Positions 402 to 34,371 of a stretch of 34,371 nt of DNA are shown one piece after another. The notes under the pieces were generated by a model. That model worked only from the letters and a program-made list of their open reading frames with translations. It searched no databases and was not told the DNA's origin. Both the position numbers and the translations under genes were made by a program. Position 1 is the first letter of the stretch. Every line of letters begins with the position of its first letter. This stretch comes from Burkholderiaceae bacterium (GTDB lineage Bacteria; Pseudomonadota; Gammaproteobacteria; Burkholderiales; Burkholderiaceae), in contig CANCQD010000010.1 in NCBI GenBank assembly GCA_947380285.1, positions 1-34,371 of the forward strand. Direction: 5' to 3'.

Positions 402-446
402 CTCATAATCCTTTGGTCCCAGGTTCAAGTCCTGGTGGGCCCACCA
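402..446 (+). pseudogene. tRNA(CAU) 3'-half remnant, copy 1
   Basis: It begins with the anticodon loop CTCATAA and runs through the 3' anticodon strand, variable loop, T arm (CCAGG-TTCAAGT-CCTGG) and TGGGCCC-A-CCA. It is identical over this stretch to the spliced 3' half of the tRNA at 22126-22413. The matching 5' half is absent: the preceding bases cannot form the anticodon stem, so this is not a functional tRNA. It has the form of an attR-type scar from integration into the anticodon loop. No intron is present. Confidence 0.85.
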
Positions 447-10040: not shown

Positions 10041-10085
10041 CTCATAATCCTTTGGTCCCAGGTTCAAGTCCTGGTGGGCTCACCA
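10041..10085 (+). pseudogene. tRNA(CAU) 3'-half remnant, copy 2
   Basis: Same 45-nt segment as 402-446, from CTCATAA to CCA, with one change (C to T at 10080) that would weaken the acceptor stem. There is no 5' half and no intron. It has the same flank and terminator as copy 1. Confidence 0.85.
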
Positions 10086-11258: not shown

Positions 11259-11303
11259 CTGATAATCCTTAAGTCCCAGGCTCAGGTCCTAGTGGGCGTA
11301 CCA
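11259..11303 (+). pseudogene. tRNA(CAU) 3'-half remnant, degenerate copy
   Basis: CTGATAATCC...GTCCCAGG...GGTCCTAGTGGGCGTACCA. The arrangement of the 3' half of the tRNA is clear but several bases have changed, including the anticodon position. It is followed by the same GAAAAGC spacer and terminator as the intact tRNA at 22126, not the terminator of copies 1 and 2. Confidence 0.75.
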
Positions 11304-15302: not shown

Positions 15303-15941
15303 ATTTATAGTGCCAAGATTTTCTTCATTGACCTCTATGTGATTCATAGGGTCGATGAGTTGTCCGCGCAATAAATACAGGGGTGCAGTTGCATAAATTT
15401 TTGCATCATGGAATGGGTCCGTAATAATTTTTGTCATCCATGCCAAGGCAGCTTCAACGTCATGAATGAAGAAGAGGTGGAAAGTGCGGAATAACACGCC
15501 ACCAAGACCAAGCCAGAGCCATAAGAGGCCAGTTTGTCGAATAAAACCATCAGTATTGGTGAAGGTATTCAAAGCAATAAATTTTTGCAAGAATACGGGA
15601 TTGAAATAAACCAATACTGGGATTGCCGCCCAAATGGACAAAAGAACAATCTTTCTATTGAGGTTGTAGCCTACTTTGATTTCTTCTTTGTATTCGTGAG
15701 TGGCTTTATTAACCTCGTCATATCCTTTGGGCTCAAAAAAGAAATGTCCGCTTTGACGAGTTGTCATAGCAACTAACCAAGCAAGCAATGAAGCTGCGAT
15801 AGGATCGGTAAAAAGTAAAAAGTAGGCAGTTAAGAAACTCAGAGCACTAACAAAGTGTAGTGATTGATTGATGCGGCTATGGTGATAGTAACGATGATCA
15901 TCCCAGCGCTGTTTTTTTAGGGTTTCAAGAAATTGAATCAA
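15297..15941 (-). CDS. DUF962/Mpo1-like membrane protein
   Basis: 214 aa with about four membrane segments. YHHSRINQSLHFVSAL (19-34) and RQSGHFFFEPKG (62-73) resemble the His motifs of the DUF962 family; yeast Mpo1 of that family is an iron-dependent dioxygenase for 2-hydroxy fatty acids. A third His cluster, FRTFHLFFIHDVEAAL, lies further on (about 151-166). The assignment is by motif memory and is not firm. It converges on the aminotransferase gene with a 6-bp overlap. Confidence 0.5.
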   Translation of the reverse strand: MIQFLETLKKQRWDDHRYYHHSRINQSLHFVSALSFLTAYFLLFTDPIAASLLAWLVAMTTRQSGHFFFEPKGYDEVNKATHEYKEEIKVGYNLNRKIVLLSIWAAIPVLVYFNPVFLQKFIALNTFTNTDGFIRQTGLLWLWLGLGGVLFRTFHLFFIHDVEAALAWMTKIITDPFHDAKIYATAPLYLLRGQLIDPMNHIEVNEENLGTINS

Positions 15942-16087
15942 TTTTGGATCCTCTGAATATTGAAGTGCTACATTACAAAAATATGAATATCACCAATATT
16001 TACAATTTATTTGTGACAATTTTAAGACATGTAAAAAAATTCACAATGTCATAAAACTGTTATTTTCTTCGAGAATACTCATAGCCA

Positions 16088-19837: not shown

Positions 19838-20059
19838 ATACATAATCAAGTATTTATTGATGTTCTCAAGAGAGGGTGTTGGCACAAGCCTCCTAAGAGG
19901 GGGCTGCAGTGTAGCCGGGCGAGATTTGGGCTCCTGAGTGTTTATCTTAAGTAATGCTTATTTATTCTTTAAAAGGGTAATACCTTATTTTTTGCCATTT
20001 TGACCATCCTATAATCTAGATGATCTTTCTCTATCTCCTGTGTTGCAAATAAGCCAATA

Positions 20060-21748: not shown

Positions 21749-21775
21749 TTAGACATAGCATTTCCCAAGACATTA

Positions 21776-21950
21776 TTTAGAGCAACGAGGTGTTAGATGC
21801 TTGCTTCAAAAACCTTTGATTTTGAAAACCAAAGACCGAGAGACCGCCTCCTTTAAATCGATGAATTTTCTTATACACCGATTGACCACCCGCAGACCCA
21901 CTGTTTATATGGGTCTATCATGGGCTTCTGCTCTCGTAAGAAAGAAGCCC
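21776..21950 (+). repeat. Structured repeat element, copy 3 (not fused to the tRNA)
   Basis: Matches copies 1 and 2 up to TCTGCTCTC. There copies 1 and 2 continue as tRNA 3' half, whereas this one continues GTAAGAAAGAAGCCC and closes a hairpin GGGCTTCT (21922-21929) / AGAAGCCC (21943-21950). It may therefore show the element's unrecombined end. The AGACCC/GGGTCT stem around 21895-21915 is kept. Confidence 0.7.
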
Positions 21951-22125
21951 TAGGGGTCTTGTAGTTAAGACCTCAATAGATTCAAGAGGTTAGTGGTGAA
22001 TTAGGCGGTTTAAATTCACTACACACCGACTACACACCAGGGTATTTTTCATGGTGTGTAGTAAATGCGGTTTTAGTGTGGTTTTGAAGCAGTTAAGTAA
22101 TACAAAACTGTATGTAAAGATTAAC
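21951..22125. other. Inverted-repeat region before the tRNA
   Basis: No gene. Contains GGTCTT/AAGACC (21955-21973), CTACACACC as a direct repeat ending before 22039, and a perfect 10-bp inverted repeat CTACACACCA (22030-22039) / TGGTGTGTAG (22052-22061) around a T-rich loop. Could hold integrase arm sites or an old terminator. The tRNA promoter should lie in 22085-22120. Confidence 0.5.
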
Positions 22126-22413
22126 GGGCCTATAGCTCAGTTGGTTAGAGCAGAGGACTCATAGCGAAAGTTGTGCCTTATGCGTGGAAACTGCATAAGG
22201 GATGGTGTCAAATTCGGAGAAAGCTAAAGGTAGAAATATCCAAGCTAACGCCGAGCCAAGCTTCAGCATGAAAGTGCTGTTGAAGGTGTAGAGACTAGAC
22301 GGCACCCATCTAAGTTGAGCAATCGATATGATGAAGGCATAGTCCAGGGAGTAGTGAAAGCTACACAAACCGGAATCCTTTGGTCCCAGGTTCAAGTCCT
22401 GGTGGGCCCACCA
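22126..22413 (+). tRNA. tRNA with CAU anticodon (probably tRNA-Ile2), interrupted by a group I intron
   Basis: Exon 1 22126-22162 and exon 2 22374-22413 join to a normal 77-nt tRNA. Acceptor GGGCCTA/TGGGCCC, D arm with AGCTCAGTTGGTTAGAGC, anticodon arm GAGGA-CTCATAA-TCCTT, T arm CCAGG-TTCAAGT-CCTGG, discriminator A and encoded CCA. The anticodon CAU is read as Met by rule. The body resembles tRNA-Ile2, whose C34 is lysidinylated by TilS, and the same intron type sits in Azoarcus tRNA-Ile(CAU), so Ile is the better call. Elongator Met is the alternative. Confidence 0.9.
22163..22373 (+). ncRNA. Self-splicing group I intron (IC3, Azoarcus type), 211 nt
   Basis: Lies between U36 and A37 of the tRNA. 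P1 is a clear hairpin: the exon end CAU plus AGC, a GAAA loop, then GUU and the guide GUG, giving the conserved U-G pair at the 5' splice site. Downstream, blocks such as AAGGGATGGTGTCAAATTCGG less its last base, GCCGAGCCAAGC, GGTGTAGAGACTAGACGGCA, GGCATAGTCCAGGGAGT and the terminal ACACAAACCGG (ending in omega-G) match my recollection of the Azoarcus ribozyme core nearly base for base. Peripheral stems P2, P6 and P8 differ in sequence but keep pairing (for example CCTTATGCG/TGCATAAGG). It has no open reading frame of its own. Confidence 0.95.
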
Positions 22414-22420
22414 GAAAAGC

Positions 22421-22453
22421 AAACCCTCATCAGAAATGGTGGGGGTTTTGTCT
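22421..22453 (+). terminator. Terminator of the intron-containing tRNA
   Basis: AAACCCTCA...TGGGGGTTTTG with downstream T-rich DNA. Same hairpin as after the degenerate remnant at 11311, with one changed stem base. Confidence 0.75.
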
Positions 22454-22474
22454 TTTCGATGATAGAGTTTTGTA

Positions 22475-23332
22475 ATGGCTACCCATAATCAACATCACTA
22501 CTTACCCGCCGCTTACTTTAAGTCATGGTGTGGAGCAGATGGTAGATTGAAGTATTTCACTTATAAGGATGGAAAACCCATCGCTGGCCTGGCGCATAGA
22601 AAACACATAACTAAGGCGTTAAATCTGTATTCTGTGTTTGGCGCACCAGATGCAAAAATTCAGCAAATTGAAAAAGATTTTTTCTCGCCATTGATCGATA
22701 CGCCAGGAGCAAAGATTCACGAAAAACTTTTATTAAAGAATAATGAGCCACTCAGCAAAGAGGAGAGGCATCTATGGGTGAAATACATACTGGCATTGAG
22801 GGCTAGAACGCCTGAAGCTGTTGAGAAAATAAGGGTATTAAGCAAAGAAATGATTGAACAGGTTTTGCTTGACTCTCAAGAAGAGTATGAATCTATCAGA
22901 CCTCTTGGAGCTCCAGGGACTTTGAGGGAATGTATTGAAAGTTGGTTTATTGAAAATATTGGCGTTTTAAGAGTTTTGCCTTCGGTAATTGAAATAGAGA
23001 CAACTAGGAATGCTCTTTTGGATATGCATTGGGTCTGTTTTGATGTTACCAAAAGTGGAGGCGAATTTATTACTTCAGACAGGCCTTTAACATGGCACAA
23101 GTCTCCGCAAGATGAAGATTTTTTTCTTGCGCTTCCGTTGAGTCCATCTTTAGGTTTTGTAATTGCAAAGAGCGCCATCACACTTGAAAAGTTGAGCAGC
23201 TTAAATCGCCTTGAGCTTGTCTCTAGATTTAATGAGTCAACAATTTCAAATTCAAAAAATTATGTTTATTCAGCTTGTGGCTACGAAGATAATTTAATTT
23301 TTAACAAAATTAGCAAATCACCTACTAAATGA
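22475..23332 (+). CDS. DUF4238 protein
   Basis: 285 aa. The N-terminus THNQHHYLPAAYFKSW (3-18) is the hallmark of DUF4238, a family of unknown biochemical role often seen in accessory and defence regions. The middle is helical with FFSPLIDTPGAKIHEK and a later WVCFDVTKSGGEFITSDRPL segment that is also family-typical. No signal peptide or membrane segment. It begins 60 bp after the tRNA and overlaps the serine-protease gene by 4 bp (ATGA), so the two are coupled. Effector or nuclease activity is speculation. Confidence 0.75.
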   Translation: MATHNQHHYLPAAYFKSWCGADGRLKYFTYKDGKPIAGLAHRKHITKALNLYSVFGAPDAKIQQIEKDFFSPLIDTPGAKIHEKLLLKNNEPLSKEERHLWVKYILALRARTPEAVEKIRVLSKEMIEQVLLDSQEEYESIRPLGAPGTLRECIESWFIENIGVLRVLPSVIEIETTRNALLDMHWVCFDVTKSGGEFITSDRPLTWHKSPQDEDFFLALPLSPSLGFVIAKSAITLEKLSSLNRLELVSRFNESTISNSKNYVYSACGYEDNLIFNKISKSPTK

Positions 23333-24108
23333 CAGATCACCCGATTTCATTGGAGCAAGCAGTTAATCTCATGAAGGGGGATCTTGGCGTTGCTTATCGT
23401 GAAATTCTTTCTAAATCATGCTGCCCCATATTTTGGTATCGAACTGATATTGCCCCTACCAAGGTCGAGCACAATGGAACGCTAACCATTCTTCAGACGC
23501 CGAAAAAAATTATAGGAATAACGGCTGCTCATGTAATACGACAATTTGAAAAAGATATTCAGATAAATGAATTTAGGCTGCAGCTAATGAATGAGGTCTT
23601 TGATGACTTTATGAGTTTGGTAATTGATATATCTGACAAGCGTGATTTAGCAACAATTGAACTATCTCAAGATATTGTGAGTAGGTTGGGAAAGACCCCA
23701 GTTGATTGGCCTCCAATTCCTCCAGAAGAAGGTAAGGGGATCATGTTGTCAGGGTTTCCAAACATAGAGTTAATTGAAGATGTGCGCGAAGCTAGCTGGG
23801 GGTTGTTTACTGCATTGGGAGTGGCACGAACCGTTACCTTGGATCAGATTACATGGCTAATTGAGCCCGAGCATAATATCCCCACTCCGAAAATTCCAAC
23901 GCCACCCCCTTTATATGATCTTGGTGGAATTAGTGGTGGCCCACTAATCAGCTGGTTTGAGAGTGAACAGCATGTAGCCCACTATAGGTTATCTGGAATC
24001 ATTACTGAGCATCCGAGCTATAAAGAAAATCTTGATTTTCCGCCGATTGAGCGATTGGCAGCGTCCCGTGCTGATTGTATTTCTGAAAATGGGGTGATTA
24101 TTTTTTGA
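23329..24108 (+). CDS. Trypsin-like serine protease, cytoplasmic
   Basis: 259 aa. A chymotrypsin-fold triad can be read: H68 in GITAAHVI, D106 in DKRDLATIEL, and S202 in GGISGGPL, spaced as in the family. No signal peptide or membrane segment, so it should act inside the cell, unlike DegP/HtrA. No PDZ domain. Residues 182-194 are Pro-rich (NIPTPKIPTPPPL), a likely surface loop. Coupled to the DUF4238 gene by a 4-bp overlap, which suggests protease and substrate or effector. The family assignment is by motif only. Confidence 0.7.
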   Translation: MTDHPISLEQAVNLMKGDLGVAYREILSKSCCPIFWYRTDIAPTKVEHNGTLTILQTPKKIIGITAAHVIRQFEKDIQINEFRLQLMNEVFDDFMSLVIDISDKRDLATIELSQDIVSRLGKTPVDWPPIPPEEGKGIMLSGFPNIELIEDVREASWGLFTALGVARTVTLDQITWLIEPEHNIPTPKIPTPPPLYDLGGISGGPLISWFESEQHVAHYRLSGIITEHPSYKENLDFPPIERLAASRADCISENGVIIF

Positions 24109-24125
24109 AATAAATCCGAATCAAT

Positions 24126-24150
24126 CAAGCGTTACTTAAAGTAACGCTTG
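24126..24150. repeat. 25-bp palindrome, left of integrase
   Basis: Arms CAAGCGTTACTT and AAGTAACGCTTG around a single A, perfect over 12 bp. It lies 18 bp after the protease stop. An identical copy lies at 25623-25647, so the pair encloses the integrase gene. There is no following T-run. Confidence 0.9.
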
Positions 24151-24262
24151 CCCCCCATTATTTTCCAATAATCTCCACAACTAGCCACAAGTTCTTTTGG
24201 CTAAATTGACCCCTGTTTTTCCTCCAATCAGGTTGTCCTAGCTGGTGGTCAGAAGCTAAAGT

Positions 24263-25615
24263 ATGTGTATGGCAATTAAAAAAGAAAGTACATATCAACT
24301 CATACACCGTAACTTAACCCTCTACCAACGCGAACATAGTACCGTATGGCAATGTCGCTATAAGGTGGATAACAAGTGGATACGGGCTACTACAAAAGAG
24401 ACCCAGCTCGACTTGGCGGTTAATAAAGCTAAAGAGCTAATGGTAGAAGCAGAGATTCGTAAGCGGTCTGGCATCCCAGTTGTGACCAAACGCTTTAAAG
24501 ATATTGCCATGCTAGCTATTGATCGCATGGAGCGGGACTTGAAGGGCGGCTTGGGTAAATCAATCTACAAAGACTACATCCGCATTATTAATGAGCATTT
24601 CATCCCCAGTCTTGGGCAACGGCTTATTACCAATATTGACTATGATGCCCTGCAGCAGTACTACGATGACCGTGAAGCTAAGTATGGCATGGCACTATCA
24701 AATAGCAATCGTAAGACTCAAAATGCTGCATTTAATAGAGTCTTTGATGAAGCCATTGTTCGGGGTTACTTAACTGAGAGTAATCGTCCCAAGTTAGATG
24801 GTAAGACTAAGGAGAGTGTGCGTCGCCCAGCGTTTGAGCTGCATGAACTCAGAGCATTATTAAAGCTACTGGGCCCATACATAGAATCAGGTAGAACGCG
24901 GGATGTGCGCGAGCGTAGAGAGATTCTGAGAGACTATGTAGAGATGCTAGTTGATACAGGTGCAAGGCCGGGTATTGAGTTGCTGGATATGAAATGGAAG
25001 CAAATCCGTTTCATGATGAATCCTATTAGTACTGTTACAGATCAATTGGATGAAGACGGGGAAGTCATTGAAGTGCATAGCCTAAACCGTAGTTGCGAGA
25101 TGACGGTTAAAGGTAAAACAGGGCAAAGACAGATTATTGGTCGCTTACCAAGCATTAGAGTCTTAGAGCGTATTGCTATGCGTAATTATGGCGTAGCGAG
25201 CTCAATTAAAGATCCATTGGCTGAGCTAATTAAACCTACCAATGATGACTACATCTTTAGAACCAAAGAAGGTAGAGACTTAAGTGATGTCTTAAACCAT
25301 ATGTTTGATGGCTTTTTAGCAGATCATGGTTTGCTCATTGATACCAAGACCAATCAGAAGCGGGTGTTCTATAGCCTACGCCATACCTATGCCACGTTAG
25401 CGCTTACTCACGATATGGTGCCAATACATACACTGGCTAAGCAGATGGGTACTAGTGTTTTAATGATTGAGCGGCACTATAGCCATTTACAGGTAATACA
25501 GGCTATTGAGCAATTACGAGGGGCAAATACTAGAAAGCTTATTGAGGCTGATAGTAGGGCTGCAGATAACTATCCTAGTAAGAAGCGGGTAGAACGAGAG
25601 CTGCGGGCAGCTTAG
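24263..25615 (+). CDS. Tyrosine-family integrase
   Basis: 450 aa. An N-terminal arm-binding part (WQCRYKVDNKWIRATT), a SAM-like core-binding domain about 80-180, then the catalytic domain: R235 in DTGARPG, YSLRHTYATL with R373 and H374, and the nucleophile Y406 in RHYSHL. The first His of HxxR is Tyr and the LGH box reads MGT, so some general positions differ, as in many island integrases. ATG at 24263 or 24269. It lies ~1.85 kb downstream of the tRNA 3' end, fitting integration at that tRNA. Confidence 0.92.
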   Translation: MCMAIKKESTYQLIHRNLTLYQREHSTVWQCRYKVDNKWIRATTKETQLDLAVNKAKELMVEAEIRKRSGIPVVTKRFKDIAMLAIDRMERDLKGGLGKSIYKDYIRIINEHFIPSLGQRLITNIDYDALQQYYDDREAKYGMALSNSNRKTQNAAFNRVFDEAIVRGYLTESNRPKLDGKTKESVRRPAFELHELRALLKLLGPYIESGRTRDVRERREILRDYVEMLVDTGARPGIELLDMKWKQIRFMMNPISTVTDQLDEDGEVIEVHSLNRSCEMTVKGKTGQRQIIGRLPSIRVLERIAMRNYGVASSIKDPLAELIKPTNDDYIFRTKEGRDLSDVLNHMFDGFLADHGLLIDTKTNQKRVFYSLRHTYATLALTHDMVPIHTLAKQMGTSVLMIERHYSHLQVIQAIEQLRGANTRKLIEADSRAADNYPSKKRVERELRAA

Positions 25616-25622
25616 GTCGGGA

Positions 25623-25647
25623 CAAGCGTTACTTAAAGTAACGCTTG
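25623..25647. repeat. 25-bp palindrome, right of integrase
   Basis: Identical to 24126-24150, 8 bp after the integrase stop. Confidence 0.9.
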
Positions 25648-25712
25648 CGATTTAGAGCTCTCGTGACCAACGGATTAAAAAATGTAAGAATTGTGTCTGA
25701 CAGCTACCAAAA

Positions 25713-25731
25713 CCTTAACCTTAACCTTAAC
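25713..25731. repeat. Short CCTTAA tandem repeat
   Basis: Three consecutive CCTTAA units in the region between convergent genes. Probably just a slippage repeat. Confidence 0.6.
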
Positions 25732-25811
25732 CTGCCAAGGAGCAGGTGTGACATAGGCTGGTTTTCTGATCTCGATTAGATCTAAACGGAGCATGGTGGT
25801 TTCGACACCAG

Positions 25812-25832
25812 TTTGTCGGGTAAACCGACAAA
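25812..25832. repeat. Palindrome TTTGTCGG type, copy 1
   Basis: TTTGTCGGGT-A-AACCGACAAA, one mismatch. It lies between the convergent integrase and T5orf172 genes, immediately after the latter's stop. Could be a two-way terminator. A longer perfect copy lies at 28801. Confidence 0.75.
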
Positions 25833-25833
25833 A

Positions 25834-26388
25834 TTACTGAGTGTGAACAAGCACAGATTCAATCACTTCAATAGCCCGTTTACCTGAGCACTTGAAGATT
25901 TCCTTTGCAACAACTATGGTGCCGCCTTTAACAAACTGCCTTTCTTGTTTGTACTTGGCAAGAAGGTTGTGAATAATTCTTTCTGCCTGACCAGAATCAT
26001 CAATGCGGACAGAAAATTTCAGCTTCCAGTCCTTTATGTTTCCATAACCTTGTTTATTTGCACTAATAAGTCTTTCTGTTGAGGAATTGGCTACACCTAC
26101 TTTGACCAATTTATTACTTGGTGAATACATGACATATAAATCACCTGGAGTTGTCTCCCTTTTCTGAATTGCAATATTCGCGGGATGGCACACTACACAA
26201 TGGCCATATCTATCTTTAAGTGCATGATTTTTTCTTCGACATCTGGACAGGCCAATTGCAATAAGAAATCCACCATCCTTCATTTGCTTGCGGTAATCGC
26301 TTTTAGATAGGCCTGTTGCATCAAAGACTTGATCTACAGGAATACGATGCCTTTCCAGAAATAGCAGTTGGTTCTGTGTAAGCTTCAT
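25834..26388 (-). CDS. T5orf172 (GIY-YIG-like) domain protein A
   Basis: 184 aa. C-terminal half about 80-150 fits the T5orf172/Mug113 type of the GIY-YIG superfamily: GDLYVMYSPSNKLVKVGVAN, then helices and QAERIIHNLLAKYKQ. The N-terminal half has a helix-turn-helix-like start and CRRKNHALKDRYGHCVVC, a possible zinc site (C49/C65/C68 by eye). Probably DNA binding with nuclease fold; activity not shown. It precedes a second T5orf172 gene on the same strand with 16 bp between the frames. Confidence 0.65.
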   Translation of the reverse strand: MKLTQNQLLFLERHRIPVDQVFDATGLSKSDYRKQMKDGGFLIAIGLSRCRRKNHALKDRYGHCVVCHPANIAIQKRETTPGDLYVMYSPSNKLVKVGVANSSTERLISANKQGYGNIKDWKLKFSVRIDDSGQAERIIHNLLAKYKQERQFVKGGTIVVAKEIFKCSGKRAIEVIESVLVHTQ

Positions 26389-26404
26389 TTATCTGGCGCT
26401 CATT

Positions 26405-27025
26405 TTATTTAATGCTCAAAATTTCATTCTTTAAAATTTCGGGATCTAAGTAATACCACTCATTAGAATCACCGTAGGTATTCCCAGAGTGTCGTAAATG
26501 TGAATATTTTTTAGCAATCGCTAATTCTTGGTTAAAAGGATTTAAAACATCTACCTCATAAAAATATAGATCAACTTCATATCCATATTTGTTTATATAT
26601 TTATTTACTCTTATATCAATATCCATATGTGTAGCACCAAGTTTGCACTGACCTGGCCTAGAGTTCGAAACAAGTACATATAGTGTCCCAAAATAATTAT
26701 TTTCTAGCCATCTCGGCGCTACTTGATAAGGAACATCAATTTCATAGTCATTATTTTCAAGCGCTCTGATTAATCTAATCGAGTGCCATCTTCTTAAATT
26801 TTTCTTAGACTTTTCCATCTCATAAAGCTTTTTTGAGATTTCAATTCCCTCCAGCCTGAGAACTTCTTTTGCTACATCATCGTATTGATGTATATATAAA
26901 TTTCTCACAAGATCGTGAATCATTTCAGTCATTACAGAATAGTCATCATCATCGCTATCGCGATATGACCTATCGTAGAATCCTTTATAGACGCTATATA
27001 AATCTACTGGCATTAATAACCTCAA
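26405..27025 (-). CDS. T5orf172 (GIY-YIG-like) domain protein B
   Basis: 206 aa. Residues about 112-200 carry the T5orf172 pattern: GTLYVLVSNSRPGQCKLGAT, a middle helix, then GNTYGDSNEWYYLD, the family's usual (S/T)EWF-like box. The N-terminal ~100 residues are acidic then helical (RDSDDDDYSVMTEMIHD) and unfamiliar. The start may be the ATG at 27013 (MPVDLY). First gene of a two-gene minus-strand unit. It is divergent from the NERD-helicase gene with under 80 bp between, suggesting shared control. Confidence 0.65.
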   Translation of the reverse strand: MRLLMPVDLYSVYKGFYDRSYRDSDDDDYSVMTEMIHDLVRNLYIHQYDDVAKEVLRLEGIEISKKLYEMEKSKKNLRRWHSIRLIRALENNDYEIDVPYQVAPRWLENNYFGTLYVLVSNSRPGQCKLGATHMDIDIRVNKYINKYGYEVDLYFYEVDVLNPFNQELAIAKKYSHLRHSGNTYGDSNEWYYLDPEILKNEILSIK

Positions 27026-27103
27026 ACTCCTATTAAGTCTTCTGAAGATAGGTTACTATTTTAGTGTTAATTATTAGATATATGGCAATCTTGCATACTG
27101 AGT

Positions 27104-28774
27104 ATGGCTCAACTTTTCCCTGAAGACTTTCAAGTTACTGAGACTGAGCGCAGATTCAGTGGGGAGCTAGCGACTTTACTTTGCTTAAAGAACGAGCTTT
27201 CTGATCAACATTGCGTTTTTCATGGCGTTCATTGGACCAAGGTTGAGGATGAGGCAACTGTTTATGGTGAAATAGACTTTCTCGTTGTTAACCCCTACGG
27301 AAAGATATTAGCAATTGAACAAAAAGAAACTGCTATTGAGACTAATAGTCAAGGCGAGTTGGTTGCTATCTACAAACGTACAGATGGCCAACGCAAAGAA
27401 AAAAATATTCGTAGTCAAGTAACGCGAAACATTCAGTCATTACGGCAAGAATTCTCCAAAAGATATAAGAACCAATCATTGCATATAGAGCATTTGCTGT
27501 ATTTGCCAACAGCCAATCTTCATGGGCAAATTCCTGCCAGCATTGCTTTAGGTAGAGTAGTTGATGCATCCGAGGCTAAGTATTTGCCTGAGATCATTCG
27601 AAGGATTCTGGAGGAAAGTCCTATGCCTACTGGTGCTGATGTGGCTGACGCTCTCACTGTTAGAGAATTCCTTTCTGAAAAAGCATGTGTAGCTCCTCAA
27701 TTGGGCTTGCTGGGTAATTCAGCTAGAGAAATGACTACAAGGCTCTCAATTGGGCTCTCAGAATGGTGTGAGCGATTAGAGTTCTCTCCTTTTAGGTTGT
27801 GGGTGCAGGGAACCGCTGGCTCTGGAAAGACGCAACTAGCATTAAAAGAGCTCAGACTAGCAAAAGCCAATGGTCAGACTGCAATGTACCTCTGTTTTAA
27901 CCGTCCTTTGGTTGATGCGATGAAGCTATCTGCTCCAGAGCCAAATAACTGTATGACTTTCCATGAGCTAGCAGAGTTATTGGCAAAGCAAAACGGTATA
28001 CAAGTGAACTTTCAGGAAGATGGGGTTTTTCCTAAGTTAGCTAACTATCTAGTTGAGAATATTTCGAAATTAGGTGGTCAGCTAGATGTTTTAGTAATCG
28101 ATGAAGGTCAGGACTTCGAACATGCATGGGGCAAATCACTTACAACTATGGTCAAAGATAAAGGCAGGATTATTTGGCTAGAAGATCCTTCTCAAGACTT
28201 ATATGGAAGGTGGAGCACAGATTGGCCTAGTTGGGTCAAGATCACATCTCCAGTGAACTATCGATCCCCTCAACGAATCGTTAGTCTGATTAATGCCCTC
28301 GAATTAACGGAGAGCCAGCTGGAAGCTGGAAATGGTTATGCGGGAATGATCCCAAATATTGACCCTTATCAGCCAGGCATGGAAATTGAGGCTACTGAAA
28401 ATGCAATTCAAGATTTGATTGCAGATGGTTATGCACCTGAGTCAATTGCCGTCCTCAGTTTTAGAGGGGTATCAAGCAGCAAGCTGCTCTCAGACGATAT
28501 CTCTGAATTAGCAGGGTTGAAGATTAGAAAATTTACTGGCTATGACAATCATGGCCATGCTCTTTGGTCGGATGGCCAGTTGTTTATTGATACTTTATTT
28601 CGCTTCAAGGGGCAATGTGCGGATGCAGTCGTTCTAACAGAAATCGATTTTGAGGACTGGAATGAAAACGTTAAAAAGCGCTTATTTGTAGGATTATCAA
28701 GAGCAAGGCTTATGGCTACTCTAGTGGTTACAGACAGGGCATCAGCCTTATTAGATAAAAAACTAGGCCTTTAA
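27104..28774 (+). CDS. NERD-nuclease/UvrD-like helicase fusion
   Basis: 556 aa. The N-terminal ~130 residues resemble a NERD-type nuclease core: GEIDFLVVNPYGKILAIEQKE with E56, D58, E72 and K74. A superfamily 1 helicase domain follows: Walker A GTAGSGKT (236-243), Walker B VLVIDEGQDF, IIWLEDPSQDLYG, SPVNYRSP, and near the end RFKGQCADAVVL and KRLFVGLSRAR. Such fusions are frequent in defence islands and act on foreign or damaged DNA (family-level knowledge). It is flanked by the T5orf172 pair and followed by a palindromic repeat. Confidence 0.82.
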   Translation: MAQLFPEDFQVTETERRFSGELATLLCLKNELSDQHCVFHGVHWTKVEDEATVYGEIDFLVVNPYGKILAIEQKETAIETNSQGELVAIYKRTDGQRKEKNIRSQVTRNIQSLRQEFSKRYKNQSLHIEHLLYLPTANLHGQIPASIALGRVVDASEAKYLPEIIRRILEESPMPTGADVADALTVREFLSEKACVAPQLGLLGNSAREMTTRLSIGLSEWCERLEFSPFRLWVQGTAGSGKTQLALKELRLAKANGQTAMYLCFNRPLVDAMKLSAPEPNNCMTFHELAELLAKQNGIQVNFQEDGVFPKLANYLVENISKLGGQLDVLVIDEGQDFEHAWGKSLTTMVKDKGRIIWLEDPSQDLYGRWSTDWPSWVKITSPVNYRSPQRIVSLINALELTESQLEAGNGYAGMIPNIDPYQPGMEIEATENAIQDLIADGYAPESIAVLSFRGVSSSKLLSDDISELAGLKIRKFTGYDNHGHALWSDGQLFIDTLFRFKGQCADAVVLTEIDFEDWNENVKKRLFVGLSRARLMATLVVTDRASALLDKKLGL

Positions 28775-28800
28775 GACCCCTTTGTATTGCCCTTAAAGGC

Positions 28801-28827
28801 AAATTTGTCGGTTAAACCGACAAATTT
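28801..28827. repeat. Palindrome TTTGTCGG type, copy 2
   Basis: Arms AAATTTGTCGGTT and AACCGACAAATTT around a central A, perfect over 13 bp. It lies 26 bp after the helicase stop, and with copy 1 brackets the T5orf172/helicase block. Confidence 0.85.
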
Positions 28828-28854
28828 ATATCTCTAACTCCATATTTTCTTCAT

Positions 28855-28884
28855 TAGCTCAATCTATGAGCTTCTAGGTTTTTA
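28855..28884 (+). promoter_or_regulatory. Operator-like inverted repeat, site A
   Basis: AGCTC-AATCTAT-GAGCT followed by TCTAGGTTTTTA, ending ~34 bp before the ATG at 28918. One of three sites of the same design in this island (see 31595 and 33553). Likely an operator overlapping the promoter. Confidence 0.6.
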
Positions 28885-28917
28885 CAATCAATCTTGGAAA
28901 ACCACAAAGGAGAAATC

Positions 28918-29280
28918 ATGCGTGACTACACATATATAAATGGCGCTCGCTTCACGATTAATAATCTATTTCGTAGCTTGCGGTTCGATATAGATCGTTT
29001 AGATATGAGCTGGGTGGATGCCGAAAAGCCAGAGTTTTGTAGGGGGTTGCGAGTGGTCGATAACGATACAGGCAATACCGTTACGGTTGATGGAGAAGAT
29101 GCTGATAATTTGATCTATAGCCTAACTTATATTTTTAGCAAAGAAGATGGGCATGACACATTTAGGGCGTCTACCGATGCTTATCTTATTGTGGCAGTAG
29201 AGACTAAAGAGTATTTGGTTTCAAGTCAGAAAAAGAACCCAGAGGGAAAGCCTGAAGCAATGGAGGCAGTTATCCATTAG
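28918..29280 (+). CDS. Hypothetical protein
   Basis: 120 aa from the ATG at 28918, with AAAGGAG six bases upstream; this decides the start over the TTG at 28894. Soluble and acidic, with strands around RGLRVVDNDTGNTVTVDGED. No recognised family. It is preceded by operator-like site A, so it is probably the first gene of the unit running to the zinc-ribbon membrane protein. Confidence 0.6.
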   Translation: MRDYTYINGARFTINNLFRSLRFDIDRLDMSWVDAEKPEFCRGLRVVDNDTGNTVTVDGEDADNLIYSLTYIFSKEDGHDTFRASTDAYLIVAVETKEYLVSSQKKNPEGKPEAMEAVIH

Positions 29281-29371
29281 GCGAACCACGAAGTGATTAG
29301 TAGTAGAGGGTAGATTTAAACCAAATTGCCTGACCCTGACATTTGTCCAAAAGGCTAAAAAGGAGAGAAGT

Positions 29372-29647
29372 ATGAACGTGCAATTAATACACATTGAGCA
29401 GTTAAATACTAAGAGGTTCTCGGCAATCTTGAAGCCCCAAAAATCAAAAGAATATGAATATATTGCTATCGCTATTGAGTATGAGAACTCTTATTACTAC
29501 TGGGCAAAAGGGGTGAGTTTGAAGATTGCCAAGCATGAGTTCGAGCGCATCAAAGCCAATCCTAAACTGTATTATTTTTCAACTGCGCTAAAACTACATT
29601 TTCGAGTTGAGAGTCAATTGCAAAAAGAGTTGGATAATGGACTTTGA
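29372..29647 (+). CDS. Hypothetical protein
   Basis: 91 aa with AAGGAGAG before the ATG. Alternating strands and charged helices (YIAIAIEYENSYYYWAKG, KHEFERIKANPK). No motif recognised. Its 3' end overlaps the HD-domain gene by 11 bp. Confidence 0.55.
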   Translation: MNVQLIHIEQLNTKRFSAILKPQKSKEYEYIAIAIEYENSYYYWAKGVSLKIAKHEFERIKANPKLYYFSTALKLHFRVESQLQKELDNGL

Positions 29648-30125
29648 CCGATCTGGATTGATTACCCTGATTCGATCAGAATTCAGGCTTGATTGGTATG
29701 GAATTCATGGGGCTAATCATTGGGCTAGAGTACTGAACCATGGCAAGAATATCGGGCAGATTCGCAAAGCAGACTTACTTGTAGTCGAGCTCTTTGGTTT
29801 CTTGCATGATAGTTGTCGCCTCAACGATGAACGCGATCCTAAGCATGGTGAACGCGCAGCAGAATTTGCTCATGGCATTCATGGGGACTACTACTGTCTA
29901 AAGCCTGAGCAGCTAGATAAGTTGTGCCATGCACTCAAGCATCACTCTGGTGGTGAGGTTTCAACTAATGAAACTATTCAGACTTGCTGGGATGCTGATC
30001 GATTAGATCTAGGTAGGGTTGGAATCTTTCCTTCACCTCAATTTCTATCTCAAGAAGCTAATATCTTTATTGACCTTGCATACGACTGGAGTACGCAAGC
30101 TCCTAGGAGAAGTCATGTCAGATGA
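29637..30125 (+). CDS. HD-domain phosphohydrolase
   Basis: 162 aa from the ATG at 29637, inside the upstream gene's end. HD signature: H24/H28 in GIHGANHW, H57-D58 in LFGFLHDS, HALKHHSGG (about 98-106) and D119 in CWDADRLDL. Such proteins hydrolyse phosphate esters, often of nucleotides, with bound metal ions. Substrate unknown. It lies in a small operon ending with a zinc-ribbon membrane protein. Confidence 0.8.
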   Translation: MDFDRSGLITLIRSEFRLDWYGIHGANHWARVLNHGKNIGQIRKADLLVVELFGFLHDSCRLNDERDPKHGERAAEFAHGIHGDYYCLKPEQLDKLCHALKHHSGGEVSTNETIQTCWDADRLDLGRVGIFPSPQFLSQEANIFIDLAYDWSTQAPRRSHVR

Positions 30126-30570
30126 CAATGGCTCTGGTGGAATTGTTAGCACCATTATTTCTATATTGATATTGGCTGCAATCTGGCCATACATATTAGC
30201 CTTACTTGGCCTTTATATTGCCTATATGGTAGCTATGGCAGTATTGGAATGGATGTCCCAAAATCCACTGATTGTAGTTTTAATCCTTCTCGGTACATTA
30301 TCAGTGTACGCAATTTGTCGATACAGGCTAATACCTATGGCGTGGAGGTGGTTGATAGAAAATCTACTGCCTAAGGCGAAAGAGGTAGCCCTACGTCAAA
30401 ATCATATGTCAAACGAGATACCAAACTTAGCGCAGAGAAAGTTTATTCCCTCTACAAACCTATACTGTTATTGGTGCACTAAAAAGCTTGGCATAAAAGC
30501 TTGGGAAAAAGGTAGTAAATATTATTGCGATGATTGCAAAGACCAAATAGATGCTGGGATTAAGTCGTGA
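30115..30570 (+). CDS. Small membrane protein with C-terminal zinc ribbon
   Basis: 151 aa from the ATG at 30115, preceded by AGGAGA; it overlaps the HD gene by 11 bp. Two membrane segments (about 10-40 and 50-67) and a C-terminal CYWC...CDDC four-cysteine zinc ribbon (about 116-140). The ORF could start earlier in frame at 30019 but this overlaps the HD gene in another frame. Role unknown. It converges on the WYL regulator gene. Confidence 0.65.
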   Translation: MSDDNGSGGIVSTIISILILAAIWPYILALLGLYIAYMVAMAVLEWMSQNPLIVVLILLGTLSVYAICRYRLIPMAWRWLIENLLPKAKEVALRQNHMSNEIPNLAQRKFIPSTNLYCYWCTKKLGIKAWEKGSKYYCDDCKDQIDAGIKS

Positions 30571-31542
30571 TTAAGCATAGCTTTTGATTGCTTTTTGAAG
30601 CTCTGCCTTAACTTTATTTTTAAGGACTGCTGGTGCCAATACTTCTACGTTTGAACCATGCTTCAGAATTTCCATTACAAGTTCAGGATCTTGGTTGTAG
30701 TCAAACTCAAGGATATAGTGACCACTCTTATCAAAGGTACTCACTTGCTGGCCATGCCAGTTCTCTCCAGAAACCCATCTTGCCCTTTCTGGAGTAAAGC
30801 GTAATTTGGCTCTCTGGGTGGCTTTTCCTGAAAAGATTCCATAACTTTCGGAGAATGTTTCCTGTAGCTGTTTATCTGATATGTCATCCGCCTTCTTAGT
30901 GGTAACTAGGGCAGTCCTAATGCCATCTAGAGCAAAGCTTCTAAGAGCCTTTCTGAGGTGGCAGTAAGCATCTAAATACCAGTTCTCTTTGTAAAAAATA
31001 AGGCGTTGTGGTGAGATTTCACGCTCAGTTAGCTCATCTTTTTGTTTGTTGTAATGGGTAATAAAAAGACGATTGCGTTTCAACAGAGCGCTGCCAATTT
31101 CTGAGAAGTTTTCAATAGAGTTTTTACGAGTGCCCGTGCCAATTACTTTAATTCTTTTTCTGAGCTCTTTTGTTGGCGTTTCTTTTTGCCCAAGAATGCC
31201 ATCAATGATTGCATTTAATGGCTCAATATGAGGGCCAATCAGACCGCCTTGATCAAGCGAAGATATAAGGTGTTGCATTAGCACTAAAGCAGTAGCCTCT
31301 TTTTCGCTAAACCATAGTCCTGGAAGCTCTAGTTTTTTAGCATCTTCAGGATTTTTGAATTTATAGCCTCCATCATGCCGATCAAAAACAATCGATGCAT
31401 TCATCCTGTCGCGTAGGTAGTCGAGATCTCGTTTAAAGGTGGCTAAAGACACCTCAAGCTCATCTAAAAAAGTCTGAGTAGGCACACATTTGCGGTGCTG
31501 AATCATATATGTAATCTTATGAAGTCGCTGCATATCGCTCAT
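30571..31542 (-). CDS. WYL-domain transcriptional regulator
   Basis: 323 aa from the ATG at 31542, with AAAGGAG five bases upstream. An N-terminal winged helix (QRLHKITYMIQHRK through FKRDLDYLRDRM), then the WYL domain with NWYLDAYCH and RSFALDGI, and a C-terminal WCX-like part. WYL regulators bind inverted repeats and often control phage-defence genes, sensing nucleic acid or nucleotides. It faces the 31655 operon across a ~110-bp region that contains operator-like site B, so self-control and control of the three site-bearing units is likely (inference). Confidence 0.85.
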   Translation of the reverse strand: MSDMQRLHKITYMIQHRKCVPTQTFLDELEVSLATFKRDLDYLRDRMNASIVFDRHDGGYKFKNPEDAKKLELPGLWFSEKEATALVLMQHLISSLDQGGLIGPHIEPLNAIIDGILGQKETPTKELRKRIKVIGTGTRKNSIENFSEIGSALLKRNRLFITHYNKQKDELTEREISPQRLIFYKENWYLDAYCHLRKALRSFALDGIRTALVTTKKADDISDKQLQETFSESYGIFSGKATQRAKLRFTPERARWVSGENWHGQQVSTFDKSGHYILEFDYNQDPELVMEILKHGSNVEVLAPAVLKNKVKAELQKAIKSYA

Positions 31543-31594
31543 AACCACTCCTTTAATTAGCCAGTCTTACAAGTTTACAACTTTATTTGTTGAA

Positions 31595-31624
31595 AGGCTC
31601 ATTTAATGAGCTTTTAGGTCATTA
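31595..31624 (+). promoter_or_regulatory. Operator-like inverted repeat, site B
   Basis: AGGCTC-ATTTAAT-GAGCTT followed by TTAGGTCATTA. Between the WYL gene and the 31655 operon. One arm base differs from the other sites. Confidence 0.6.
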
Positions 31625-31654
31625 ACCTTATTTCAATGGCTTATAGGGGGTTAA

Positions 31655-31843
31655 ATGATCAAATTTATCGGTATTTTCTTCATGTTTCTCAGTTGGGCAG
31701 CCCAGTCCACTGGTGGTTTCGATATTAAGTTGAGCCTTTGGTTTTTATTTGGCCTCTTTCTTGTATGCAGTCAGGGGATCTTTGGCCACTTGATATTTGT
31801 GGAGCGAGAAAAGATCAGGGCGCAATACAGGAGAAGAAGATGA
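31655..31843 (+). CDS. Small membrane protein
   Basis: 62 aa with two membrane segments (3-20 and 28-48) and a basic tail KIRAQYRRRR. First gene of a three-gene unit: its stop overlaps the next start (ATGA). Downstream of operator-like site B. Not recognised. Confidence 0.55.
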   Translation: MIKFIGIFFMFLSWAAQSTGGFDIKLSLWFLFGLFLVCSQGIFGHLIFVEREKIRAQYRRRR

Positions 31844-32190
31844 AAAAGTTAAATTGCGAGATAGGCGACTTAGCAATTACGGTTAACTGTAAGGTGCCAG
31901 AAAATCTAGGCAGTATTGTGCGAGTTAAATCTGCTATTGGCATTAAGCAGTGGGGTGCTAGTGAAGAAGCACTCTTTAGCTGGGATGTTGAAATTGCTAC
32001 TGAACGCGGATGGCTTGTCTACGAGTATGGTGGTTATCCGGAGACTGCCAAGAGCGGTCCAGTGCCCGATCAATATCTAAGAAGAATCTCACCTCCCAAA
32101 GGTTATCTATTGGAAGAGTTTTCAGACTCTGAAGAATTGCAAATCAATTTTCATGAAGTAGAAATTTTCGAAAGTGAGACCAATGTCTAG
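31840..32190 (+). CDS. Hypothetical protein, paralogue 1
   Basis: 116 aa from the ATG at 31840, coupled to the upstream stop. Strand-rich: CEIGDLAITVNCKVPENLGS and VPDQYLRRISPPKG. The next gene product has the same layout, so the two arose by tandem duplication. No known family recognised. A longer frame from 31738 overlaps the membrane protein and is unlikely to be the start. Confidence 0.6.
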   Translation: MKKLNCEIGDLAITVNCKVPENLGSIVRVKSAIGIKQWGASEEALFSWDVEIATERGWLVYEYGGYPETAKSGPVPDQYLRRISPPKGYLLEEFSDSEELQINFHEVEIFESETNV

Positions 32191-32533
32191 AAACGGTCAT
32201 ATTCACTTGCGTTGCGAGTTAGGTAGCGTTGCCATGATTGTTGACAGTAAATTCTCTGTGAATCGAGGCTTGATTGTAAAAGTTATAGAGCCAATGGGTT
32301 TGATGAGATGGCCAGACTTTGGGACATCAGTAATGCCTATTTGGCGTGTAAGGGTGCTCGCTCAAGGTCACACGATTTGTTATCACCTTCCCAAGAAAGG
32401 GGAGCTGCACCATGTGAAGGTAGGCTTAGTGCCAGATAGATTCTTACGTTGCCTTACGCCGTTGTCTGGACAAATGCGTTTTGAGTTTGAAGATTATGAG
32501 CCTGAGCCCAACTTAGAGCCTATGACTTTATAG
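32183..32533 (+). CDS. Hypothetical protein, paralogue 2
   Basis: 116 aa from the ATG at 32183, overlapping paralogue 1 by 8 bp. Shares CELGSVAMIVDSKFSVNRG and VPDRFLRCLTPLSG with paralogue 1. The C-terminus is acidic and Pro/Glu rich. Function unknown. Confidence 0.6.
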   Translation: MSRNGHIHLRCELGSVAMIVDSKFSVNRGLIVKVIEPMGLMRWPDFGTSVMPIWRVRVLAQGHTICYHLPKKGELHHVKVGLVPDRFLRCLTPLSGQMRFEFEDYEPEPNLEPMTL

Positions 32534-32685
32534 ATCTCCACTTGTCCAAGCCACTGACCTAGTTCCAAAATTTTTGTACCGTGATAAAGCGATAACCTTC
32601 ACTACCTTTTTCACTCAGGATAGTAACAACCGTATCAATATTTGAGGATATAGGTGCTAATCTAATGAGTTCTTATTCGTAAGTT

Positions 32686-32988
32686 TCATTTTTTAGCGGG
32701 TGAGTAACCGATCCTATTCCCATTGTTATCAAATACGTTAGTGACTCCGGTAGGTGACTGGGTTTCATATCCAATTCGATTACCGTTATTGTCATAAACC
32801 CCATTGGTTGAGTTGTAGTTAAGCGGGCTATTTTGATAATTTAGTGGTGAATTATTGTAGTTCAATGGGGAGTTGTTGTAGTTGAGCGGGCTGTTGTTGT
32901 AATTCAAGGGTGAGCTATCCCAATTAGTAACTTGAGCATTGCAGCCGCTTGAAATGAGAATAGCGCTTATATAAAGTAATTTTTTCAT
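32686..32988 (-). CDS. Putative lipoprotein with SPLNYNN heptad repeats
   Basis: About 100 aa from the ATG at 32988. Signal peptide with a lipobox-like ISSGC. Then five SPLNY units spaced as heptads, and a C-terminal module YDNNGNRIGYETQSPTGV and VFDNNGNRIGY, resembling the 4-fold beta flower type of small exported proteins. The third gene of a minus-strand cluster; the 33194 product shares its C-terminal module. Role unknown; surface or envelope location inferred. Confidence 0.7.
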   Translation of the reverse strand: MKKLLYISAILISSGCNAQVTNWDSSPLNYNNSPLNYNNSPLNYNNSPLNYQNSPLNYNSTNGVYDNNGNRIGYETQSPTGVTNVFDNNGNRIGYSPAKK

Positions 32989-32998
32989 CAAGTTTCCC

Positions 32999-33190
32999 TT
33001 AGGATTTCTTGGAATATTTGTGACGAGATGGTGTGTAGTTAGTACTTAAATCTTTCCAGCAGTAATAGCAATTTTCACTACTGCTGGGATTGTTATATTT
33101 TTGTGAACTCTTTTTGCCTCCACCATCTGTGCGGGCAAAACTAGGTATGGCAAAGCAAATTAGCAATACTGTGATGGTCAAATTCTTCAT
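32999..33190 (-). CDS. Small exported cysteine-containing protein
   Basis: 63 aa. Signal peptide at residues 1-19 (MKNLTITVLLICFAIPSFA), then a Gly/Ser/Lys-rich mature part with CYYC. Lies 3 bp after the 33194 gene and 10 bp before the heptad-repeat gene. Not recognised; the CxxC could bind metal or form a disulfide. Confidence 0.6.
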   Translation of the reverse strand: MKNLTITVLLICFAIPSFARTDGGGKKSSQKYNNPSSSENCYYCWKDLSTNYTPSRHKYSKKS

Positions 33191-33193
33191 TTT

Positions 33194-33508
33194 TTACCAA
33201 CCTTTAACTGTAGGAGTTTGGGGCACTTGACGTGGTGTATTGATAGTAGTATTCGGCGTTGAATAAACTGGAGTCGTTGTAGTACCTTGGTAAGTGCCTT
33301 GCGGGCTATAGAAACTAGTTTGTCCGTTATCTGTTTGATAAGACTGAACGCTCTGACCAGTTGCGTTATAGACATTGGTAACACCGCTCGGTGAGGTTTG
33401 GCTGTAGCCTAAATAGTTACCGGTGGGGCCATAAATGGCTTGAGCAGATAAACTACGTGCCAATAAAACTGCCTGAGCAATCAAAAATAGTGGGACAAGG
33501 TATTTCAT
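33194..33508 (-). CDS. Small exported protein, beta-flower-like module
   Basis: 104 aa. Signal peptide at residues 1-23 (to SLSAQA), then IYGPTGNYLGYSQTSPSGV and TNVYNATG, matching the C-terminal module of the heptad-repeat protein, and a Thr/Pro-rich tail. First gene of the minus-strand cluster, downstream of operator-like site C. Confidence 0.65.
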   Translation of the reverse strand: MKYLVPLFLIAQAVLLARSLSAQAIYGPTGNYLGYSQTSPSGVTNVYNATGQSVQSYQTDNGQTSFYSPQGTYQGTTTTPVYSTPNTTINTPRQVPQTPTVKGW

Positions 33509-33552
33509 GGGCGCCTCTCAAAGTTCTTATTAACTAAGCAACAAATTCAGAA

Positions 33553-33582
33553 TAAAAACCTAGAAGCTCATTAGGCGAGCTT
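33553..33582 (-). promoter_or_regulatory. Operator-like inverted repeat, site C
   Basis: On the minus strand: AAGCTC-GCCTAAT-GAGCTT followed by CTAGGTTTTTA. Perfect 6-bp arms. Lies ~45-75 bp before the ATG at 33508. The closest match to site A including the following TAGGTTTTTA. Confidence 0.65.
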
Positions 33583-33636
33583 CCAGCTCAGCACAATCAA
33601 AATTACTGAAATAAAACAGGATTTCATTAAGAGCCC

Positions 33637-33924
33637 ATGCTAAGCACCCTTGTATTTGTTACCCTCATGCCGCTTCAGGTATCGCCGACCGGTAAATCGC
33701 AGGTGCCGCTCTCAAGACCGCTGGCAGTTGCTGCATTTGTTGATAGCGCCAGAATTTTAGGCTTACCAAAGTTCAAGATTAGAGATAGCAATGGAAATAT
33801 TTATATAGCCAACAAAGCAATGATGCAGGAGCCTTTTGCACTAGTTCACCAGCATGCTGGCATGCCAATAGTAAGTGATATCAGTATGCGAAAAGCCTAC
33901 ATTAATTCGTTTGTACGTCGCTAA
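33637..33924 (+). CDS. Hypothetical protein
   Basis: 95 aa. No clear ribosome-binding site. A short hydrophobic N-terminus could be a weak signal peptide. FKIRDSNGNIYIANKAMM recalls the NGN turns of neighbouring exported proteins, but no family is certain. It is followed after 18 bp by another plus-strand gene. Confidence 0.5.
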   Translation: MLSTLVFVTLMPLQVSPTGKSQVPLSRPLAVAAFVDSARILGLPKFKIRDSNGNIYIANKAMMQEPFALVHQHAGMPIVSDISMRKAYINSFVRR

Positions 33925-33942
33925 AAATTATTAGGAGAAAGT

Positions 33943-34371
33943 ATGAAATTAATTCGATCCTTCCCTTTAAGCTTATTCATAATTTTGGGTGTCATTATAT
34001 CTATTCCGCCAATTGCCTACGGATCATTTCACTATATGCATCCCGTAGATCCAGATGCAGTCTATACAAAGTATGGCCTACTGAAAGTAGAGTGGAGGAA
34101 GTTTTCTGAGAATGATAACTTCACGGAGTATCTTGGAAAAGAGCAGTATTTTGATGAGGATTCATTAACGGCTGATGTTTTGGTTTTGCGAAGTTATCAA
34201 AAACCGCAAACATCGATACATGAGAACTCTAAAATTATTTATTCATCTGCTGTCATGCACCAATCTGTCAATTGCAGAAATAGAACAGTTTCGGTTAAGG
34301 ATTTAATGATGTTTTCTAAATCACTAAGTAAGGGCTCATTGGTTAAAGACCTTTATGACTTGGACTGGGAT
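33943..34371 (+). CDS. Exported protein, surface-adhesin E-like (3' truncated by window)
   Basis: The first 143 codons are in the window. ATG has AGGAGAAA before it. Signal peptide-like N-terminus (FPLSLFIILGVIISIPPIAYG). Then a pattern of YFDEDSLTADVLVLRSY, YSSAVMHQSVNCRNRTVSV and SKSLSKGSLV that resembles the surface-adhesin E/CNP1-like family: strand, Ser, conserved Cys, then a final G. Not certain. It overlaps no other gene. Confidence 0.5.
   Translation, partial: MKLIRSFPLSLFIILGVIISIPPIAYGSFHYMHPVDPDAVYTKYGLLKVEWRKFSENDNFTEYLGKEQYFDEDSLTADVLVLRSYQKPQTSIHENSKIIYSSAVMHQSVNCRNRTVSVKDLMMFSKSLSKGSLVKDLYDLDWD

Follow-up and report, generated by a model that had tools for sequence, protein, structure and literature searches.

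Why should a tRNA gene that stands beside an integrated element carry a group I intron at the very point where such elements recombine? The question arises from a 34,371-nt stretch of DNA from a Burkholderiaceae bacterium (contig CANCQD010000010.1; hereafter the window), across which ARAGORN found no tRNA when run without introns. With introns allowed, it called a tRNA(cat) at 22126-22413 with an intron of 211 nt and a product of 77 nt. The intron splits this tRNA(CAU) at 36/37, cutting the loop between CTCAT and AA, and cmscan matched RF00028 (Intron_gpI) at 22150-22366 of the forward strand, over the whole model (1-253), with 55.3 bits (gathering score 50) and E 1.4e-11. Thus, the group I intron that the initial annotation had placed in the anticodon loop proved to be real. 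The P1 helix proposed with it, formed by the anticodon and the guide GUG, was upheld as well: the guide pairs with the anticodon CAU (22160-22162), and the splice site is marked by a U.G pair. An alignment of introns from many taxa showed the P1 columns (21-23 paired with 8-6), the U.G pair, and the terminal G of the intron without variation in 25 of 25 sequences. When the intron was folded together with 8 exon bases on each side, the z score was -2.75 and 1 of 200 shuffles was equally stable; at least one compensatory change was present in 27 of the 58 predicted pairs, in line with core helices maintained by such changes. These results indicated that the intron is conserved as a structure, and it presumably splices out to leave a normal tRNA. 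ARAGORN labelled the gene Met(cat); judging from the body of the tRNA, it is probably an isoleucine tRNA, tRNA-Ile(CAU).

The intron class had been described as rare, an assessment that did not hold: an exact pattern of the intron core matched 114 stretches in genome_contigs, many of them in Polynucleobacter and some genomes with multiple copies, and ARAGORN called a tRNA in 94 of 115 core-pattern matches, 89 of these with the anticodon CAT. Searches of phage and plasmid records gave 87 and 8 matches, respectively, none covering more than 80% of the query. The longest (34-39% of the query, 72-77% identity) lay in intron sequence and came from Agrobacterium phage Atu_ph07, Alteromonas phages, and a Comamonas plasmid; the match to a Legionella plasmid was confined to the exons. 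A PDB sequence search returned no useful match (best E 0.023).

We addressed the relation of this gene to integration by counting att junctions over the window and 120 fetched regions (designated by L-numbers); the 5' half of the tRNA was found in at least 129 of the 151 genomes searched, and the regions were taken from 87 genomes. The att core is the 7-bp anticodon loop CTCATAA of tRNA(CAU); these seven bases close the displaced 5' halves and open the displaced 3' halves. Junctions with CTC[AG]TAA comprised 52 unbroken tRNAs, 42 joints of the tRNA 5' half through the core to an element (attL), 24 joints of an element through the core to the tRNA 3' half (attR), and 15 element-core-element joints; at 21 more core sites a single side was recognised. 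By these four junction classes the core is common to both element ends and to the empty site; the element of the window itself is covered at its left end only. In Polynucleobacter, the native target is the tRNA(CAU) copy after rpoD, and by its arrangement and its close matches the window probably belongs to that genus. This anatomy indicates that the elements recombine within the anticodon loop of the single native tRNA(CAU) behind rpoD, or at the displaced half of an earlier element. The core used in the window (table 1) is one base away from the usual one.

After integration, the order is a displaced 5' half, about 200 bp with repeats, and a complete tRNA. The complete tRNA has an upstream region of its own; the element thus splits the host tRNA(CAU) and supplies a substitute. 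As read from the sequence, the intron-bearing gene is a second complete tRNA brought by an integrative element of freshwater bacteria. The core and the spare tRNA lie 186-187 bp apart in the window and 120-225 bp apart in other loci. Repeats similar to those of the window, CTTACACACCGCTTACACAC, were observed in L017, L077, L080, L105, L237, L238, and L243, and such ACACACC-type repeats may well be the arm sites of the integrase. A conserved right end, as in the window, precedes most of the displaced 3' halves compared. The two other copies that the initial annotation described as joined at the anticodon loop were recovered as intronless 3' halves (first and second rows of table 1). Its view of this tRNA as an integration target was correct in part: the joints at the anticodon loop and the link with integration stood, but the intron-bearing gene is the second copy borne by the element. 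Integration into the intron-bearing tRNA itself was considered and dropped, since the 3' halves at 402 and 10041 carry an intronless loop and the intron-bearing gene lies behind the att core. A second type of element, at L131, L139, and L160 (first 5' half), uses the same loop with an integrase about 35% identical to that of the window, and restores the tRNA at its right end; the restored tRNA in L139 has no intron and is preceded by a duplicated rpoD end.

Table 1. Features of the tRNA(CAU) integration locus in the window.
Feature	Position	Strand	Basis or remark
Displaced intronless 3' half (attR scar), core CTCATAA, 45/45	402..446	+	Sequence comparison
Displaced intronless 3' half, 44/45 (1 mismatch)	10041..10085	+	
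Decayed 3' half, 37/45 (8 mismatches)	11259..11303	+	
Right end of neighbouring (left) element, ...GACCACCCGCAGACCC...CTTCTGCT	21876..21932	+	Conserved right end
Att core, element-element junction, CTCGTAA	21933..21939	+	15 such junctions with CTC[AG]TAA
Element left end (GAAAGAAGCCC...), attP-type region, core to spare tRNA	21940..22125	+	Matched in relatives
Two ACTACACACC repeats	22017..22039	+	Sequence; putative integrase arm-type sites
5' exon, spare tRNA(CAU)	22126..22162	+	ARAGORN
Group I intron, 211 nt	22163..22373	+	cmscan, ARAGORN, alignment
Internal guide GUG (P1)	22173..22175	+	Pairs with CAU in 25/25
Terminal G of intron	22373..22373	+	Invariant in 25/25
3' exon including encoded CCA	22374..22413	+	ARAGORN
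Remaining element to window edge, right end outside	22414..34371	+	DUF4238, T5orf172, NERD-helicase, WYL-WCX proteins
Element integrase, 450 aa, tyrosine recombinase family	24263..25615	+	PHROG phrog_1 integrase, E 4.3e-32

The integrase of the window had no match in Pfam or NCBIfam; its phrog_1 match places it in the tyrosine recombinase family, as expected for a tRNA-targeting element, and proteins 94-97% identical to it were present in 12 other fetched regions. Among segments of at least 5 kb, 18 of the 33 that start with a displaced 5' half, repeats, and a complete tRNA contained an intact integrase; none was found in the 22 led by a bare native tRNA or 3' half, and 1 of the 10 led by an intron remnant had one. 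None of the window segments 446-10085, 10085-11303, and 11303-22413 contained an intact integrase, and all three look like dead remnants. To the right of the spare tRNA, no second att half was found within the window. In a quick integrase tree, in which long branches were flagged, the spare-tRNA integrases fell into one 20-row clade (support 99), inside which the integrases of L238, L246, and L248 were also placed. A search of viral_contigs yielded no locus with an attP-like pattern and no relative of the integrase. The cargo at 22475-31548, with the protein families named in table 1, would fit a defence or regulatory load.

The comparison of relatives with and without the intron, which the initial annotation had proposed, separated the two kinds of gene copy. 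The intron was present in 52 of the 58 element-borne full copies (48 at 36/37 and 4 at 33/34; 6 without) and in 2 of the 45 native copies behind rpoD (43 without), for which Fisher's test gave p 7e-20 with shared ancestry ignored; since element copies share ancestry, the 52 of 58 represent far fewer independent events. Four full copies that were assigned to neither kind were all intronless. In six genomes in which both kinds were noted, the intron was in the spare copy only in four and in neither copy in two. All four full copies found in strain MWH-HuK1 (at most 3 mismatches) bear the intron, so this cell would depend on splicing. The 3' half was retained in 52 of 52 intron-bearing copies with enough flank. 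Copies with an unbroken loop comprised 53 unsplit and 44 split ones, the latter including 27 native, 14 unassigned, and 3 labelled element-borne; of these three, one (L121) has a core that lacks element-like flanks, and another (L150) starts with decayed sequence. Two loci provide clear examples of hits on spare copies without an intron: in L163, two consecutive displaced 5' halves stand before an intron-bearing copy, and in L247, a second element lies inside the spare tRNA of the first. Exceptions were found on both sides. The element-borne copies of L134, L142, L144, L148, L208, and L213 have an unchanged loop and no intron, and two of these loci, L142 and L148, encode intact integrases with 96-97% identity to that of the window; conversely, the intron is present in the rpoD-side copies of L125 and L127. 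One element-borne intron tRNA (L153:3761, oriented coordinates) has the anticodon TAT instead of CAT.

We consider it likely, judging from sequence comparison, that the intron hides the rescue tRNA of the element from the element's own integrase while splicing restores the RNA. The element splits the native tRNA(CAU) in its loop and supplies, behind its left end, an entire tRNA(CAU) together with an upstream region for it. If this rescue copy were intronless, it would be a perfect att site for the same integrase and its relatives, open to splitting by the next element or to recombination with the nearby attL, with loss of the attachment region. The intron would erase the att site in the DNA of the rescue gene, and self-splicing would remake the normal tRNA in the RNA; later elements would then be steered to the displaced ends, at which no gene is damaged by insertion. 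Certain relatives would reach the same result through an altered anticodon stem beside the loop. To our knowledge, all group I introns known in bacterial tRNAs sit in the anticodon loop, and the position alone thus proves nothing. The arguments for protection of the rescue copy are the junction anatomy, the contrast between element-borne and native copies, the recurrence with diverse integrases, the 33/34 introns, the altered stems, the hits on unshielded spares, and the structural conservation of the intron. What tells against it are the six intronless, unchanged spares, two of them (L142 and L148) with near-identical and intact integrases, the shared ancestry of the element copies, the intron in rpoD-side L125 and L127, the 30 of 53 loci of other taxa that lack an upstream core, and L238.

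An upstream core was sought at 82 of the 89 CAT calls, 7 having been dropped because of short upstream sequence or an intron longer than 300 nt. An att core was present 110-300 nt before the intron-bearing tRNA at 29 of 29 Polynucleobacter loci and at 23 of 53 other loci, compared with 7 matches for two control 7-mers taken jointly over the same 82 loci. At the other 30 of these 53 loci no att core was found upstream, so that the intron also persists without a visible element. These data indicate that the spare-tRNA layout recurs in other Proteobacteria. An integrase lies just behind the intron-bearing tRNA in L017 and L077 (52% and 44% identical to that of the window), and the same arrangement was observed in L105 (59%) and L080 (39%), both truncated, the latter by the contig end, and in L024 (58.5% over a short piece); integrases 66% identical in L116, 38-39% in L122, L136, and L151, and 33% in L247 extend the range. 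In Methylophilaceae and Oxalobacteraceae, the elongator tRNA-Met(CAU) is used, and at the alphaproteobacterial loci L056 and L094 both the displaced half and the spare resemble tRNA-Lys, although the ARAGORN calls were Arg and Tyr.

The same site is also broken in two other ways. A related intron at 33/34, one anticodon earlier, splits the loop between CT and CATAA in L119, L133, L183, and L207, and this type was also found in the tRNA-Met of L247. The L207 intron reached 33.2 bits (E 7e-6) with RF00028, short of the gathering score of 50, and those of L119 and L133 gave no RF00028 match at gathering score. Loci chosen by their integrase provided the other way: a sample of 14 of 399 genomes of the order with a match led to L237 and L243, and a family search (3 of 26 genomes) led to L264. 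At all three, a displaced 5' half and repeats precede a spare tRNA that has no intron and whose anticodon stem is altered beside the loop (GGCGA/TCGCT in L237, GTCGA/TCGAT in L243, and GAGAA/TTCTT in L264; the split native half has GAGGA or GGGGA). Integrase identities were 49-53% for L237 and L243, and 87% between L264 and L237. From the way tyrosine recombinases act, these stem bases would be the natural binding arms of the crossover site. The spare of L237 differs throughout and so may be of foreign origin instead of being a modified copy. Elsewhere in the integrase-chosen sample, L235 has the intron; L238, L239, L242, L245, L256, and L258 show the ordinary order of an unmodified tRNA or half, repeats, and integrase; L246 has a 5' half and repeats with no spare; and the remaining loci had no tRNA close by. 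L238 is the difficult case among these, for its integrase belongs to the spare-tRNA clade, yet it has no spare copy and its tRNA is unmodified.

Could the intron be a mere passenger? It might be a neutral or selfish sequence, gained once or a few times in an ancestral spare tRNA and spread with the element, with no role in integration, and we regard this as unlikely although it could produce much of the pattern. The integrases and spare copies of different species are so alike (94-97%) that a single acquisition and later transfer account for many of the 52 cases; moreover, 211 nt is too short for an open reading frame of the intron's own, cells can evidently live with or without it, to judge from the 6 intronless spares among 58 and from many tRNAs elsewhere, and splicing would make such a passenger harmless. 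Passive spread, however, leaves unexplained why 43 of 45 native copies, in the same genomes, are intronless, why the pairing of spare and intron recurs with integrases that are 33-66% identical, and why a second intron position and three altered stems break the same site.

That the intron protects the tRNA of the host from integration, as proposed for archaeal tRNA introns, is very improbable. The broken att core, the intron in the rpoD-side genes of L125 and L127, and the 30 of 53 loci of other taxa without an upstream core are compatible with such a defence, but the distribution in Polynucleobacter runs the other way, with the host copy intronless in 43 of 45 cases and the element copy intron-bearing in 52 of 58. 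With introns so infrequent in the native copies behind rpoD, what they seem to shield is the rescue tRNA and not the host. We attach just as little weight to control of the tRNA supply, for instance by growth state or GTP level, with the effect on the att site incidental. Group I splicing requires a guanosine cofactor, which would make such control conceivable, as would the MWH-HuK1 genome, in which all four full copies found are intron-bearing; however, regulation accounts neither for the intronless native copies nor for the stem changes in relatives. Escape from anticodon nucleases was rejected because the mature tRNA is unchanged. Concealment of the rescue tRNA from the integrase thus remained the reading that we preferred, and it can be set beside several known systems.

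The initial annotation likened the intron to the Azoarcus tRNA-Ile ribozyme, and we take the intron of Azoarcus BH72 tRNA-Ile to be inserted after U36 of tRNA(CAU), to be about 205-220 nt long, and to have a CAU/GUG P1; the window intron presumably agrees with this type in its RF00028 match, its length, its position after U36 of tRNA(CAU), and its P1. In the portion available to us, a review of bacterial group I introns names the tRNA-Ile structure of Azoarcus and makes no mention of an integrase or a genomic island (PMC3984707). Unlike the Azoarcus type as described, the host of the intron is here an element-borne second tRNA behind an att site. The elements resemble tRNA-targeting islands with tyrosine integrases in having a tRNA att site, displaced halves as direct repeats, an integrase beside the tRNA, and tandem arrays. 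Usual islands, however, rebuild the target from a 3' half that matches it and have the repeats between tRNA and integrase (as in L238, L239, L242, L245, and L256), whereas the elements described here carry a whole separate tRNA after the repeats.

The closest precedent is archaeal. An available part of one study proposes that introns imported with a mobile element could exclude further elements (PMC3293823, Sugahara et al. 2012), and the hypothesis of Randau and Soell on tRNA introns versus integration is cited in the accessible text of another paper (PMC4390854). As far as these portions go, both cases have in common that a tRNA intron removes an integration site and that the element may itself bring the intron. 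The archaeal introns described there are bulge-helix-bulge introns at 24/25, come from one population, and are cut by a protein enzyme, whereas those considered here are ribozyme introns that lie exactly in the 7-bp crossover and occur in dozens of genomes, with a second intron position and altered stems in addition. The tycheposons of Methylophilaceae are, in the accessible portion of their description, islands that begin with tRNA-Met(cat) and hold a tyrosine recombinase, and the word intron is absent from its main text (PMC10872708). The likeness to our elements rests, so far as that portion shows, on the tRNA-Met border and the tyrosine recombinase. Ca. Methylopumilus universalis (L055) has an intron-bearing tRNA-Met(CAU) as well as a displaced 5' half, and no integrase of the window integrase family was detected there.

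A literature search that missed most subscription journals gave no prior description of bacterial group I introns in island-borne tRNAs. A shielding role for a bacterial tRNA intron may thus be new, as no earlier description was found in bacteria, with the archaeal idea preceding it. Bacterial tRNA introns are mostly seen as harmless passengers; if our reading is true, one of them has a concrete job, by which an essential gene becomes invisible to a recombinase at the DNA level with its RNA unchanged. It would lend strong bacterial support to an idea that has up to now been argued from the tRNA introns of archaea, and would explain the crowded island arrays behind rpoD in Polynucleobacter. A wider proposal, for and against which we find the case evenly balanced, is that elements of Proteobacteria that split tRNA(CAU) would generally carry a rescue tRNA made invisible to the integrase, by an intron at either of two positions or by an altered stem, and that the group I introns of ordinary-looking bacterial tRNA genes, perhaps including that of Azoarcus, would be relics of such elements, their use having been to erase the att site in the DNA and leave the RNA whole. 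For annotation, the practical consequence is that tRNA finders run without introns miss such genes.

Several minor observations concern the same loci. In L143, L157, L158, L160, and L162, a 3' piece of the intron together with the tRNA 3' half is joined to the same kind of gene end, and across several genomes these joints sit at nearly one base of the intron core. They look like deletion scars that were carried along; a separate att site inside the intron core, used by an element with an intron-core attB, was also considered. RF01718 (Polynucleobacter-1 RNA, function unknown) was matched at L017:523-666 and L077:6979-7119, on the opposite strand and 3-6 kb downstream of the intron-bearing tRNA, and had no match at gathering score in the Polynucleobacter loci scanned. 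The spare-tRNA region of L040, a record titled as a Klebsiella pneumoniae MAG, is near-identical to that of the Nevskiaceae record L077, and the title may be a mislabel.
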